From: an uncultured Bacteroidota bacterium
Lineage (GTDB): Bacteria > Bacteroidota > Bacteroidia > Flavobacteriales > Flavobacteriaceae
Assembly (NCBI GenBank): GCA_902597545.1
Contig: CACJYD010000004.1
Location: forward strand, 19,988-83,987
Direction of reading: 5' to 3'
DNA: 64,000 bases
Part shown: positions 16,549 through 26,834 of the stretch, piece by piece
How positions within the stretch are numbered: position 1 is the first letter of the stretch
How the letters are laid out: each line of letters opens with the position of its first letter
Notes under the pieces: model-generated
The model's database searches: none
Told to the model about the DNA's origin: nothing
The model's input: the letters and a program-made list of their open reading frames with translations, nothing else
Program-made: the position numbers and the translations under genes

Positions 16549-17454
16549 CTAATCTATTATTCCATCAATATTATAGCTAGAAACAAATTCCCAAATTAAA
16601 CCGCTAGTATTTTTACCGTTATAATTTAATTTATCATCCCAATAATGGCCACCTCCTATTATTTTAATATGTTCAACATAAATATCTCCAGCATCATTAT
16701 AGTATTTATACTGTTCTATTGAACCATCTTGATTAGTTAATAAATCTTCATTTGGTGTGGTGTTAAAATTTTTCCACCAATCAACTACTTCTGGAATTGA
16801 TGGATAATATATATTACCATCATATGGAACATCAAAATCATCCGTTCCATGAATATTAATCATTGCCGTAGGGAATTGAGCATCACAACTTTGGTAACTA
16901 TCATCTAACATAGTACCAGCAACTGAACCAATCGCAGCAAATTTTTTGGAGTTACAAGCTAAATAATATGACATAAAACCTCCATTTGAATATCCAGCAG
17001 CGTATATTCTTTTACTATCAATTACAGGATAATCAACTATTAATTGATCAATTAAATTTTCAATGAAACCAATATCATCAACATCACTTTTATTATCAGC
17101 AGAGGGATTAGAACAATTCCAATGTGAGCCAGTACCACCTAAATCAAGACCTTGAGGATAGACAACTATAAAATTATTACTCTCTGCTAAATCTCTCATA
17201 TCTGCCGAATTAATGAATTGAGTAGCAATTCCTCCAAAACCATGAAAAACAAACATCAATGGATAATCAATTTCAGAATCATAAGAATCAGGAATATAGA
17301 CAAGATAGTTTCTATTCACATTGTCATGAGTTAAAGTTTTTGTTTGAAGTCCTGTTATAATTCCATCCTCATCAACCTGAGTATTATCTTCACTCTTACA
17401 TGAAATAATCATTAATGATAAAATGAAAAAGGATAAATATTTTTTGCAATTCAT
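16549..17454 (-). CDS. Poly(3-hydroxybutyrate)-depolymerase/feruloyl-esterase-like lipoprotein hydrolase
   Basis: MFVFHGFGG, YAAGYSNGGFMSYYLAC nucleophile elbow, GGGHYW. Confidence 0.8.
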   Translation of the reverse strand: MNCKKYLSFFILSLMIISCKSEDNTQVDEDGIITGLQTKTLTHDNVNRNYLVYIPDSYDSEIDYPLMFVFHGFGGIATQFINSADMRDLAESNNFIVVYPQGLDLGGTGSHWNCSNPSADNKSDVDDIGFIENLIDQLIVDYPVIDSKRIYAAGYSNGGFMSYYLACNSKKFAAIGSVAGTMLDDSYQSCDAQFPTAMINIHGTDDFDVPYDGNIYYPSIPEVVDWWKNFNTTPNEDLLTNQDGSIEQYKYYNDAGDIYVEHIKIIGGGHYWDDKLNYNGKNTSGLIWEFVSSYNIDGIID

Positions 17455-17469
17455 ATTATTAAAATTATG

Positions 17470-19953
17470 TTATTTAGACTGTGGAATATCTATATTAATT
17501 TCGACCATATCCACAAGATTATTTTCACTTCCAAGTAGATATTTAGAAAAATGATTCGCTCGAAGCCAAAAATTATATTCAGACATATTCCCAAAACCAT
17601 GTCTTTGACTAGGTAATATCATAAAACCAAATTTTTTATTTGCTTTTATTAAGGCATTCGCCATTCTATAAGTAGCCCCAGGATGAACATTATTATCCAT
17701 ATCTCCAGTTACCAAATATAAATGTCCTTTCAAATTCTTTGCCAACGATTGATTCTTATCAATATCATAAATGTATTTAATATTTCCATCATCATCGGTT
17801 TCCTCTAAAATACCATGATGCGTTTCACTCCACCAGCTATTATAAATAGAGTTATCATGGTTTCCTGCTTGAGAATACGCAACTTTGAAGAAATCAGGGT
17901 AAACTAAAATCGCTGCAGTTGACATAAAACCACCACCACTGTGACCATAAATTCCTACTCGATTAATATCAATAAAATCGTGTCTGTTTGCTAATTGTTG
18001 TGCAACATATTTTTTATCAGCTAAGCCATAATCTCTTAAGTTTCCATAGCCATAATTATGATACCATTTTGATCTATCTGGATGACCTCCTCTATTCCCT
18101 AAAGTGATTACAATAAAACCTAACTGAGCCATTCTATCAAGCCTATCCATTCTAACTGAGAAAGACTTATTGACTGATTCGGTTTGAGGGCCTGGGTAAA
18201 CATATTCTAATAAGGGATATTTTTTATTTTCATCAAAATCAAAGGGTTTGTAAATAACTCCATACAAATCTGTTATTCCATCATCTGCTTTTGCTTTAAA
18301 TGTTTCTGGAAATTTATATCCTGATTCAAATAAAGCACTTAAATCAGCAGTCTCCAGATTCATTATCACACTTCCATCAGAGTTTATAAGATTAGATTTT
18401 GGTGTTGTATTTACCCTGGAAAAATTATTAACAAAAAACTTATGATTATCTGAAGGGTATGTCATTGTATTGAAGTCACCCTTATTTAATAATTTGGGTA
18501 CTCCACCATTTAAAGAAATTTTATAAGTATGTTCATAATAAGGATCAATTTCTTTATTTACTCCATGTGCACTGAAAAATAAAAAGTTTGATTTTTGATC
18601 GTAATACTTAATATTATCACTATGAAAAGGGCCACTAGTAATTCGGTTTAACAAATTCCCATTTATATCATGCCTGTAAAAATGTGCCCATCCATCTTTC
18701 TCAGACCAATGTATCATTTCAGTTTCATTTTTAATTAAGTACAATGGTCTTGTTTCAATGTAAGTATTCATTCTTTCTTCAATTAATACTTCTACCTCTC
18801 CAGTGTTAATGTCAGCTCTACATACATCCATTTTTTTTCTATCTCTACTCGTTATATTAAAATATATTTTTCCTTTATCAGACAATAATAATGTAGGCCT
18901 AAATTCATCATCATAACTAGACGGTTTAGTTCTTTTACTATGAATATTAATTCCACTTATGTAGGAGATTGTTTTTTGCTTGATTGAGTCAATTTGAACT
19001 TTTCTTATATCTTTAGATTTTATATCAAAGATCAAAATTTCGTGAGTGTACTCTGCTTCCTCACCAGCCATATGATATTTATACGTTTCGAGTGTAGGTC
19101 TTTTTTTACCAACAGAATTTATTACCCACAAATCTTTAATTTTTCGTCTGTCAGTTTTTTGATATACAAAATTTTTGGAATCAGATGACCAATACCCTCT
19201 TATTGGAAATTTATCATTTTTCATTTTTTCAATATCTTCATTATCCATTCCTCTATTGTATCCTCCATATCCAAAATGTTCAACACCATCTTTTGTCCAC
19301 TGATTTTCTACTATAGTTGAATCTTTTTCATCAGCTACTGCCTTTAAAAAGTTTTCCTTATCCATCCAATATAGATTGTGTTTTTTTGAATAAAGTACAA
19401 TTGTACTATCAGGTGCTACATTTGCCCATTTTTTCCACTTCTCGTCTTTCTTTTTTTCATTATTAATGATTGTTAGTCCATTGCCTCCAAGTTTATATTC
19501 AAGAAAGAAAACCTTTTTTTCTTTGCTTTTCTTTTTTAAAGTATCAGAGGACTCTACAAGTTCTGAAGATGTAACCCTAAATCTAATAGCAGTTTCATTT
19601 TTAACAAACTTGAAATTAAACTTTGGAAGGTGTTTACCATCATAAGGATCCTTTGTGATTTCTGTTAACCATGCAGCCATTTTATCATTATCAAATAATT
19701 CTGACTTTGTTCTTCTATCTGCATCCACTAAATAATATTTAGAACCATTAGTTGTTTTATATTGATACCAAAATTTATTTCCGTTTTTAAGCCAATGAGG
19801 ATTAACGGTTGTTGAATGAACTAGTTTAGCTAAATTTTTTGGAGAAAACTTATAAGCTAATTCATAGTTTGCCTTGTTAGTATCATGAGATTGACTAAAA
19901 CTCAGATAAGTAAATAAAATAAATAAACTATAACACAATTTTTTCATAAACAC
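17470..19953 (-). CDS. S9 family peptidase (dipeptidyl peptidase IV-like)
   Basis: GIYGHSGGGFMS, TGDMDNNVHPG, RHGFG catalytic contexts; signal peptide. Confidence 0.92.
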   Translation of the reverse strand: MFMKKLCYSLFILFTYLSFSQSHDTNKANYELAYKFSPKNLAKLVHSTTVNPHWLKNGNKFWYQYKTTNGSKYYLVDADRRTKSELFDNDKMAAWLTEITKDPYDGKHLPKFNFKFVKNETAIRFRVTSSELVESSDTLKKKSKEKKVFFLEYKLGGNGLTIINNEKKKDEKWKKWANVAPDSTIVLYSKKHNLYWMDKENFLKAVADEKDSTIVENQWTKDGVEHFGYGGYNRGMDNEDIEKMKNDKFPIRGYWSSDSKNFVYQKTDRRKIKDLWVINSVGKKRPTLETYKYHMAGEEAEYTHEILIFDIKSKDIRKVQIDSIKQKTISYISGINIHSKRTKPSSYDDEFRPTLLLSDKGKIYFNITSRDRKKMDVCRADINTGEVEVLIEERMNTYIETRPLYLIKNETEMIHWSEKDGWAHFYRHDINGNLLNRITSGPFHSDNIKYYDQKSNFLFFSAHGVNKEIDPYYEHTYKISLNGGVPKLLNKGDFNTMTYPSDNHKFFVNNFSRVNTTPKSNLINSDGSVIMNLETADLSALFESGYKFPETFKAKADDGITDLYGVIYKPFDFDENKKYPLLEYVYPGPQTESVNKSFSVRMDRLDRMAQLGFIVITLGNRGGHPDRSKWYHNYGYGNLRDYGLADKKYVAQQLANRHDFIDINRVGIYGHSGGGFMSTAAILVYPDFFKVAYSQAGNHDNSIYNSWWSETHHGILEETDDDGNIKYIYDIDKNQSLAKNLKGHLYLVTGDMDNNVHPGATYRMANALIKANKKFGFMILPSQRHGFGNMSEYNFWLRANHFSKYLLGSENNLVDMVEINIDIPQSK

Positions 19954-20002: not shown

Positions 20003-20860
20003 TTAGAATCTTTTAAAAAAATTCCAAATATCTGAGAACATATTTGGATATGTTGGTCTTAAATTATGTCCTCCATTTTCAACCCTTATATATTTTATTT
20101 CTTTATTATCATTACATCCAATGAAAGTATATATTGTCTTATCATTCATTATTTTTTTTTGTGGAGGAAGTGCACACTCAAAATTTATTGCCCACAGCTC
20201 TGCACTTTTTAGTGCATCTAAAAAATTGTGGCCAAATGCTATTCCACCATCAATAGGAATAGTCGAATCTTTAGCACCATTTATTTGAAATATAGATAGT
20301 GGTTTTGTGTTGTCTTTAATTGGCATACTTTCCATAAGCTGACTCACAACTGGAGCAATTGCTTTAAAATGTGAAGTATGAATTCCTAGTTTGTTTACCA
20401 TCCCTGATCCATTTGAAGTTCCTATTGCATAAATCTTATTCATATTCAAATTATTGTAGTTTTCTAATTCCTTGATAATTGAATTAATGAAAGCCACATC
20501 ATCAGCTTTTGAAGGTTCTGTCCCTAAATTCCAAGAATCTAGATGACCTTGAGGATAAATGCCAACAAATTCTCCACTATCCGTAAAACTTTTTAACTGA
20601 TTTACCCATGAAGTATTTTTACCACCTTTTCCGTGTAAAGCAAATACAATTGGATAATCTACATCACTATTAATATTTGCCGATGTTTGAATTATTACTG
20701 GTCTTTCAGTTTTGGTTCCTTGAATTATTTGATCAATATAAATAGTCTTCGTAACTAACGATTTTTTACCATTAAGATCCTGGCTTACTAATTCATTTGA
20801 ACTATCGCATGAAAAAAAGAATATGAAAATCGTTGATATAAAAACTAAATTAATTTTCAT
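20003..20860 (-). CDS. Esterase/depolymerase-like alpha/beta hydrolase, lipoprotein
   Basis: FALHGKGG, AIGTSNGSGMVN, NGGHNLRP; lipobox FFSC. Confidence 0.75.
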   Translation of the reverse strand: MKINLVFISTIFIFFFSCDSSNELVSQDLNGKKSLVTKTIYIDQIIQGTKTERPVIIQTSANINSDVDYPIVFALHGKGGKNTSWVNQLKSFTDSGEFVGIYPQGHLDSWNLGTEPSKADDVAFINSIIKELENYNNLNMNKIYAIGTSNGSGMVNKLGIHTSHFKAIAPVVSQLMESMPIKDNTKPLSIFQINGAKDSTIPIDGGIAFGHNFLDALKSAELWAINFECALPPQKKIMNDKTIYTFIGCNDNKEIKYIRVENGGHNLRPTYPNMFSDIWNFFKRF

Positions 20861-20899: not shown

Positions 20900-21007
20900 T
20901 TAACAATCACATGGATCGCAATTACAAGGGCTGCAAGTACACTGGTTGCAATTATTTTTATTACATGGCTCGCAGTCACAACTACAATTAGTATTCATAT
21001 TGGTCAT
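20900..21007 (-). CDS. 35-aa Cys-rich (11 Cys) metallothionein-like peptide, absent from supplied ORF track
   Basis: Hand translation: MTNMNTNCSCDCEPCNKNNCNQCTCSPCNCDPCDC*, ATG at 21007-21005, TAA at 20902-20900; motifs CDCEPC, CTCSPC, CNCDPC. Confidence 0.7.
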   Translation of the reverse strand: MTNMNTNCSCDCEPCNKNNCNQCTCSPCNCDPCDC

Positions 21008-21036: not shown

Positions 21037-21411
21037 TTACGTATTATTTAGTAAATCAGAAAAATAGGGATAGTAGATTATAACTAATACCATTAACGAA
21101 CTAATTACAGCAAATGAAACAGCCCCAGCAGAAATATCTTTGATTAATTTAATTCTAGAATCATACTCTGGATTAATTATATCACATATTTTTTCAGCCA
21201 CAGTATTCAGAGCTTCTGTGCTTAATATAAATCCAATCAAGATTATATGAATAATCCATTCATTTTTTGTTATTTCAAAATAATACCCTAGACCAATAAA
21301 TAGAAGAAAAAAAAGGGATTGAACTTTAATTGAATCTTCATTTTTTAAAAGAAAAAACATTCCACTAAGAGCAATTATAATACCTTTGATTCTTTTAAAT
21401 ATAAATTGCAT
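21037..21411 (-). CDS. dgkA: Diacylglycerol kinase (DgkA/undecaprenol kinase family)
   Basis: STEALNTVAEKICDIINPEYDSRIKLIKDISAGAV motif, TM segments. Confidence 0.9.
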   Translation of the reverse strand: MQFIFKRIKGIIIALSGMFFLLKNEDSIKVQSLFFLLFIGLGYYFEITKNEWIIHIILIGFILSTEALNTVAEKICDIINPEYDSRIKLIKDISAGAVSFAVISSLMVLVIIYYPYFSDLLNNT

Positions 21412-26296: not shown

Positions 26297-26834
26297 AATC
26301 TTGTTTTTCTTTTACATATTATTTTTTTCATCATTTAATATTTTTAGTCAAGAATTAATAATTGGAGAGGAAAGAATTGAACCTGGTATTGTTTTAATTT
26401 TCGAAGGTGCTGTTAAAGATGTTGTAATTCCCAAATCCAATAATTTGAGTGTTGAAGAAACTAATGTACATATTGAAGCGAGAGTTAATTGGGATTCTTT
26501 AAATATCCCCGAGGGGACTCCGGCAGGTGGATTTGTACCATTCTTAAAAATAAGTTCTGTTATATTAAATCAAAGTACTGGTCTAAAAACATTTGTTGAT
26601 CTTACTCCTCACATCAATCTGATTGATAACTTTCATTATGCACGAAATATTGCCCTTCCTGGGAAGGTTGATGATTTATATACAGTTGAATTTAAAATCA
26701 ATCCTCCACACGTTTATGATTTAGCTTTTCATAAAGATTGGGCTGAAAAATTTGGTAAAGACTTATTCAAAGGAAAATCCTATACTTATGAAGATGTTGA
26801 CTTTGAGGAGATTGCAAAGGCTAACAGAGAATAA
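26283..26834 (+). CDS. P19/Tp34-like periplasmic iron(/copper)-binding protein
   Basis: VHIEARVNW...EGTPAGGFVPFLKISS...NFHYARNIALPG...YTVEFKINPP resembles the P19/Tp34 family; overlaps SCO gene. Confidence 0.65.
   Translation: MKALKILFFFYILFFSSFNIFSQELIIGEERIEPGIVLIFEGAVKDVVIPKSNNLSVEETNVHIEARVNWDSLNIPEGTPAGGFVPFLKISSVILNQSTGLKTFVDLTPHINLIDNFHYARNIALPGKVDDLYTVEFKINPPHVYDLAFHKDWAEKFGKDLFKGKSYTYEDVDFEEIAKANRE

Follow-up and report, generated by a model that had tools for sequence, protein, structure and literature searches.

A conserved eleven-cysteine flavobacterial peptide, probably metallothionein-like, and its SigZ-like sigma factor partner in related genomes

Metallothioneins, which hold several d10 metal ions in thiolate clusters, are recognized here by composition, as small proteins with about 20–35% cysteine in CxC and CxxC motifs and with few or no aromatic residues. 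CxC and CxxC motifs set in a ladder, with polar residues between them, are the classic arrangement for metal thiolates. Among cysteine-containing regulators, ZAS anti-sigma factors carry an HxxxCxxC motif within a helical domain of at least about 80 residues. In a literature search that covered few subscription journals, no paper found gives a function for SigZ-type sigma factors, links SigZ to a metallothionein or cysteine-rich peptide, or names a metallothionein in the genera discussed below. The metallothionein SmtA is characterized by a zinc-finger fold (PMC10612145). CorE, an ECF sigma factor of Myxococcus, needs thiols in both its linker and its tail for metal-dependent activity, and CorE-like ECF238/ECF44 factors have a CXC motif between sigma2 and sigma4 together with a C-terminal cysteine-rich domain (PMC8999054).

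The initial annotation pointed to an unlisted, 35-residue reading frame with 11 cysteines in the window, by which we mean the whole 64,000-nucleotide stretch of flavobacterial DNA that was analyzed. This frame is as described: it translates exactly as given, to MTNMNTNCSCDCEPCNKNNCNQCTCSPCNCDPCDC; codon 4 is also an ATG in the same frame and offers an alternative start (Table 1). Cysteines occupy positions 8, 10, 12, 15, 20, 23, 25, 28, 30, 33, and 35, and the motifs CDCEPC, CTCSPC, and CNCDPC are all present, the latter two overlapping at C28. The gene sits between dgkA and an esterase-like lipoprotein gene, which are 176 bp apart. The peptide gene is probably co-transcribed with dgkA, which has no functional link to the peptide as far as is known, and the downstream esterase-like gene is probably a mere neighbor outside the peptide's function. 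This copy of the esterase-like lipoprotein has no Pfam match, though gene clustering shows that it resembles a paralogue at 16549–17454. A prolyl-oligopeptidase-family peptidase gene (17470–19953) sits between the two paralogues, a layout that recurs in the genus.

Table 1. The cysteine-rich peptide gene and its immediate neighbors in the window.
Feature	Position in window	Strand	Basis and remarks
Cysteine-rich peptide gene (35 aa, 11 Cys)	20900..21007	minus	ATG start, TAA stop; translation, homologues, purifying selection
dgkA (diacylglycerol kinase, PF01219)	21037..21411	minus	Pfam E 9.7e-26; 29 bp upstream of peptide gene
Esterase-like lipoprotein gene	20003..20860	minus	39 bp downstream of peptide gene; gene order kept in genus

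Metal-related genes in the surroundings had been taken as making metal buffering plausible. The SCO, ZIP, and HMA domains named in this connection are real, and Zn, Cu, and heavy-metal-domain proteins occur elsewhere in the window, but the SCO, ZIP, and HMA genes lie 4–9 kb from the peptide and no linkage to it is shown. The informative context is a SigZ-like sigma factor and a promoter found in relatives, which cannot be seen in the window because its genus has neither.

The reading frame is a real, conserved flavobacterial gene. When the window was shuffled 40 times at the mononucleotide level, the most cysteine-rich ORF of 20–60 codons had a mean cysteine fraction of 0.168 and never exceeded 0.217, as against 0.314 for the peptide. 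Frame and cysteine pattern are kept in relatives, and selection acts on the protein, two points on which the initial annotation had asked for a check: between the window and its closest congener there are 10 synonymous changes over 12.3 sites and 4 non-synonymous changes over 71.7 sites, and a pooled pN/pS of 0.18 across 31 close pairs of peptide genes indicates purifying selection. Among 65 homologues, both cysteine codons are used at each ladder site and the spacer residues are variable. That the frame is a chance ORF without a product could draw on its length, which is under the usual gene-caller limits, and on its absence from most members of the genus. It is contradicted by the shuffles, by pN/pS, and by a ladder that stays fixed across 70 homologous places, and we give it next to no credence.

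Within the window's genus the peptide is found in 6 of 23 genomes, each time in the order dgkA-peptide-esterase. Because these genomes are 55–87% complete, absences carry little weight, with the exception of G006, a seventh genome that contains both flanking genes: its dgkA is about 90% identical, the esterase follows directly, and the peptide is missing (L241), apparently a clean loss. Across the family, profile matches were obtained in 70 of 400 sampled Flavobacteriaceae genomes (50 of 237 genera), at one place per genome, the few weakest being doubtful because they are broken or partial. A class-wide sample gave matches in Flavobacteriaceae only, and a scan of named genomes with a DNA pattern built from a close set of nine peptide sequences (57 named loci) also recovered the peptide from Kaistella, Frigoriflavimonas, and one Saprospiraceae MAG. 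We take Kaistella and Frigoriflavimonas to be usually placed in Weeksellaceae.

What unites the family is the spacing of its 11 cysteines, CxCxCx2Cx4Cx2CxCx2CxCx2CxC. Every ladder cysteine is fixed in the 65 homologues, the sole exception being one tyrosine at the last position, and the consensus of the core set reads MKNxECTCNCxxCxxGNCxNCTCENCTCSNCNC. At their spacer positions, proline is found in a minority of these homologues. The prolines of the CxCxPC motifs in the window are a genus trait, and the proposal that CxCxPC marks the family fails, since only the cysteine ladder is fixed. Neither Pfam (E up to 0.1) nor NCBIfam (E up to 1) contains a match to the window peptide, the peptides of relatives match neither library at E up to 1, and a profile search of the PDB matched no chain, metallothionein chains included.

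A comparison of neighborhoods of about 12 kb around the 70 peptide loci revealed that the next gene downstream encodes an ECF sigma factor in 49 instances (48 by clustering and one, L078, by profile). The best NCBIfam match of this partner is SigZ (TIGR02959, NF007215), with E values of 1e-47 to 1e-56 over its length. Relative to the TIGR02959 cut-off of 168.65 bits, which only 7 of 248 phylum genomes exceed, one partner scores 176.5 and another 161.0, and several members fall below curated cut-offs. An independent search of the 400 genomes for the sigma factor returned 51 close homologues (E at or below 3e-43), 50 of which lie directly behind the peptide by coordinates, while at the 51st (G234) the sigma gene is interrupted by a stop and the peptide is reduced to a truncated remnant. 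Most relatives have a two-gene operon that begins with the peptide gene and continues with the gene for a SigZ-like ECF sigma factor, of which the peptide is most likely the dedicated target and partner. Invariant residues in 45 of these sigma factors include H91 and C96 in the linker and C154, C155, C175, and C178 in the tail, which together form a CC...CxxC arrangement. An AlphaFold model (pTM 0.43) predicts two domains in an ECF-type fold, with moderate confidence in the tail and low confidence in how the domains are placed relative to each other, so that whether linker and tail thiols meet lies beyond what the model can show. In the neighborhoods of the 70 loci, no anti-sigma gene recurs at the peptide-sigma locus and no metal exporter recurs beside the sigma factor.

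The peptide gene of relatives is preceded by a rigid promoter element, GCATCTTTTT-N12-CGTCT, which can also be written TGCATCTTTTT-N12-GTCTA and lies 22–33 bp ahead of the start codon; CGTC often serves as the –10 sequence of ECF promoters. Of the 49 loci with the sigma factor, 45 carry the element and the other four have near matches that are one or two bases off, and none of the 21 loci without the sigma factor has it. Patterns with spacings of N13–18 found nothing, the true spacing being N12. Among 20 genomes searched, 17 contain the pattern, for which a reversed control gave 0–2 matches per genome. Because the pattern usually occurs once per genome, before the peptide, the regulon predicted from it is essentially the operon itself. 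Most of the 57 named loci show peptide, promoter, and sigma factor together, and Kaistella and Frigoriflavimonas have the peptide alone. Cultured carriers of the operon include Polaribacter sp. Hel1_85, Lacinutrix, and Winogradskyella. Extra matches to the promoter pattern in L137, L140, L144, L145, and L147 have no convincing gene downstream and look like chance occurrences. At another locus (L146, G356:C1), a second copy of the promoter (GCATCTTTTT-N12-GTCT) lies at 26472, 389 bp ahead of the operon promoter, and is followed by a DUF3703 gene (PF12487, E 3e-32) that adjoins the peptide-sigma operon just upstream. Judged by this placement, the DUF3703 gene of G356 is a possible second regulon member. 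DUF3703 presumably has a metal role.

The window's genus, one with reduced genomes, has no SigZ-like sigma factor at E≤1e-25 (the window's own assembly being 85% complete), and the promoter element is absent from it. Its ECF matches are generic, at about 28% identity and without coverage of the cysteine tail. At least 15 other genomes, many of them small, also keep the peptide without the sigma factor. Because the ladder persists where the sigma factor is missing, the peptide seems to have a job of its own. The distribution suggests loss of the sigma factor in the window's lineage, not a gain: the ancestor would have had the operon, the regulator would then have been lost, and the peptide would have come under other control, probably read-through from dgkA in the window. 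The window may thus represent what remains without the regulator, a retained peptide. Two arrangements recur among sigma-less small genomes. In L094 and L113, a CDF cation-efflux gene (PF01545), a metallo-beta-lactamase-fold lipoprotein gene, and the peptide gene follow one another on the same strand, which places the CDF gene two genes upstream of the peptide. In L101 and L111, a carbonic anhydrase gene (PF00484 in L101) comes after the peptide, as does a SulP-like transporter gene in L101.

Forty more distant SigZ-like loci were selected by the sigma factor alone, and 22 of them have a cysteine-rich ORF beside it, mostly of a second peptide type, exemplified by MNNCKCTNCDCTKCNCGNCLESNCPCSKCDCDKCDCC. 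Presence of a peptide tracks the tail of the sigma factor, with peptides at 20 of 22 loci that have a G-L-G...CxxC tail and at 2 of 18 that lack it, an association whose p-value is too good owing to shared ancestry; in a phylum-wide TIGR02959 sample, the tail-peptide association alone was not significant (p 0.27). In a sigma tree, type I and type II factors fall into two distinct groups (97/91 and 100/100) that are sisters of each other (89/83 for the pair), and peptide-type labels change 8 times, compared with 47.5 in shuffles, with shared ancestry not fully corrected for in the shuffle, Fisher, and tree-label tests. Other Bacteroidota families have other, unrelated cysteine-rich peptides upstream or downstream of a SigZ-like sigma factor, and a promoter of like form precedes these peptides even where they lie downstream. 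Part of the cysteine tail is shared with SigZ of Vibrio and other Bacteroidota. Plasmid searches with both peptide types returned no match, and SigZ genes on Vibrio, Photobacterium, and Priestia plasmids have no cysteine-rich neighbor. Two further SigZ-like loci, L326 (G078) and L281 (G907), encode unusually cysteine-dense peptides (MKDLNKFRNAELNSNTNCCTCPPDCCTCC... and MDTTNQNNCTCNSNCNCQNNCQCNC...) that resemble neither type I nor type II. On the Arenibacter algicola plasmid pSMS7 (L302, 2453–5142), genes for a thioredoxin, a permease, and an NAD(P)H-dependent oxidoreductase come after a SigZ-like sigma gene that has no cysteine-rich neighbor, and their arrangement is suggestive of a metalloid-resistance cluster.

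We favor, at a probability of roughly 0.7 for the explanation as a whole, a translated, miniature, His-free cytoplasmic metallothionein-like peptide that in relatives belongs to a sigma-peptide operon under metal-responsive feedback. We infer that the 11 cysteines, with their fixed spacing, would bind soft metal ions (Cu(I), Zn, or Cd) and so contribute to metal buffering or detoxification. The SigZ-like factor most likely recognizes the conserved promoter element, which would co-induce peptide and sigma factor and let the latter activate its own gene. The linker His/Cys pair and the CC...CxxC tail of the sigma factor may plausibly sense metal directly, and the peptide, by lowering free metal, would close a negative feedback loop. 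The general composition of metallothioneins fits: 11 of 35 residues are cysteine, the window copy has no aromatics, and the CxC/CxxC ladder is fixed in 65 homologues. On composition and fixed ladder, the metallothionein-like reading of the initial annotation stands as the best one, stripped of CxCxPC as its signature. Against the explanation as a whole count the lack of a conserved histidine in the peptide, unlike SmtA, the lack of a metal exporter recurring beside the sigma factor, the absence of the peptide from most of the incompletely assembled genomes of the genus, and the chance that the sigma tail responds to thiol stress instead of metal. A broader proposal, to which we would give even odds, is that SigZ-like factors sense metal as one-component regulators, each dedicated to a rapidly evolving miniature metallothionein gene at the same locus. 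Sensor and sink would then make up a two-gene, autoregulated switch, widespread in Bacteroidota, that can decay to a bare peptide in streamlined marine lineages such as that of the window.

An unlikely alternative makes the peptide mainly a regulator of the sigma factor, a mini anti-sigma or metal- or redox-sensing partner that keeps the SigZ-like factor inactive and releases it once the peptide's thiols are metallated or oxidized. Strict adjacency and co-inheritance with the sigma factor would suit such a role, as would the lack of any other anti-sigma candidate recurring at the locus, and many ECF factors have a co-transcribed cysteine-containing anti-sigma factor (PMC8999054). Yet the window's genus and at least 15 other genomes retain the full cysteine ladder without having a SigZ-like sigma factor. 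Peptides of 33–35 residues also offer no hydrophobic or helical segment with which to bind one, and the types at distant SigZ loci are wholly different, although a contact surface should be kept. Nor do the peptides resemble ZAS anti-sigma factors, being 33–37 residues long, with no HxxxCxxC motif and no conserved histidine.

It is similarly improbable that the peptide acts as a thiol-based redox buffer or as a target of oxidative stress, with the thiols of the sigma factor sensing disulfide or electrophile stress and not metal. The same composition would serve, and ZAS anti-sigma factors in other ECF systems respond to zinc-thiolate oxidation (PMC8999054). A redox buffer would not, however, need a spacing fixed across 50 genera. 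Metal genes lie near some copies of the peptide (the CDF exporter gene and, under the second promoter copy, the DUF3703 gene, whose metal role we assume), and the CxC/CxxC ladder with polar spacers is itself the classic layout for metal-thiolate binding. Very unlikely is a cysteine-rich RiPP precursor, lanthipeptide- or ranthipeptide-like, with its enzyme encoded elsewhere. A short, conserved, cysteine-rich product would be expected of one, but there is no leader, the ladder beginning at residue 5–8 of about 33, Ser/Thr partners are not fixed, and the conserved partner is a sigma factor. The initial annotation had set this option back for want of an adjacent modification enzyme, and the wider comparison agrees, as no maturation enzyme recurs in the 70 neighborhoods.

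Proteins of such small size escape gene callers and family libraries, and metal buffering in Bacteroidota may be overlooked as a result. The link to the metallothionein-like peptide provides SigZ-type sigma factors with a concrete candidate target and signal. In addition, several natural thiolate peptides of 33–37 residues offer minimal metallothionein models that are small enough to synthesize.

Several known systems resemble parts of this one. Like SmtA/BmtA of cyanobacteria and Pseudomonas, the peptide is small and cysteine-rich with CxC and CxxC motifs, and its local CxCxxCxC motif resembles the start of SmtA. Mycobacterial MymT is another short, cysteine-rich bacterial peptide, thought to bind Cu(I), and is set apart by description, its cysteine layout and length being different. 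Nearest in size and style are the small copper metallothioneins of fungi (e.g., Neurospora crassa), which are very short, CxC-rich, and His-free, a likeness for which we claim no homology. SmtA/BmtA proteins have about 55 residues, compared with 33–35 for the peptide, which has no conserved histidine or hydrophobic residues and no room for SmtA's zinc-finger fold (PMC10612145). Length, histidine content, fold, and curated profile all place it outside SmtA/BmtA. For the sigma factor, a close parallel is CorE/CorE2 of Myxococcus xanthus (ECF238, former ECF44), likewise an ECF sigma factor without a recurrent anti-sigma factor and with linker and C-terminal thiols (PMC8999054). The partner sigma factor belongs to a different family, with an H-x4-C linker (H91/C96) and a CC...CxxC tail (C154-C155/C175-C178), all invariant, in place of the CXC motif and larger cysteine-rich domain of CorE-like ECF238/ECF44 factors. 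Because CorE uses linker and tail thiols, the SigZ-like factor may, by analogy, bind metal itself.
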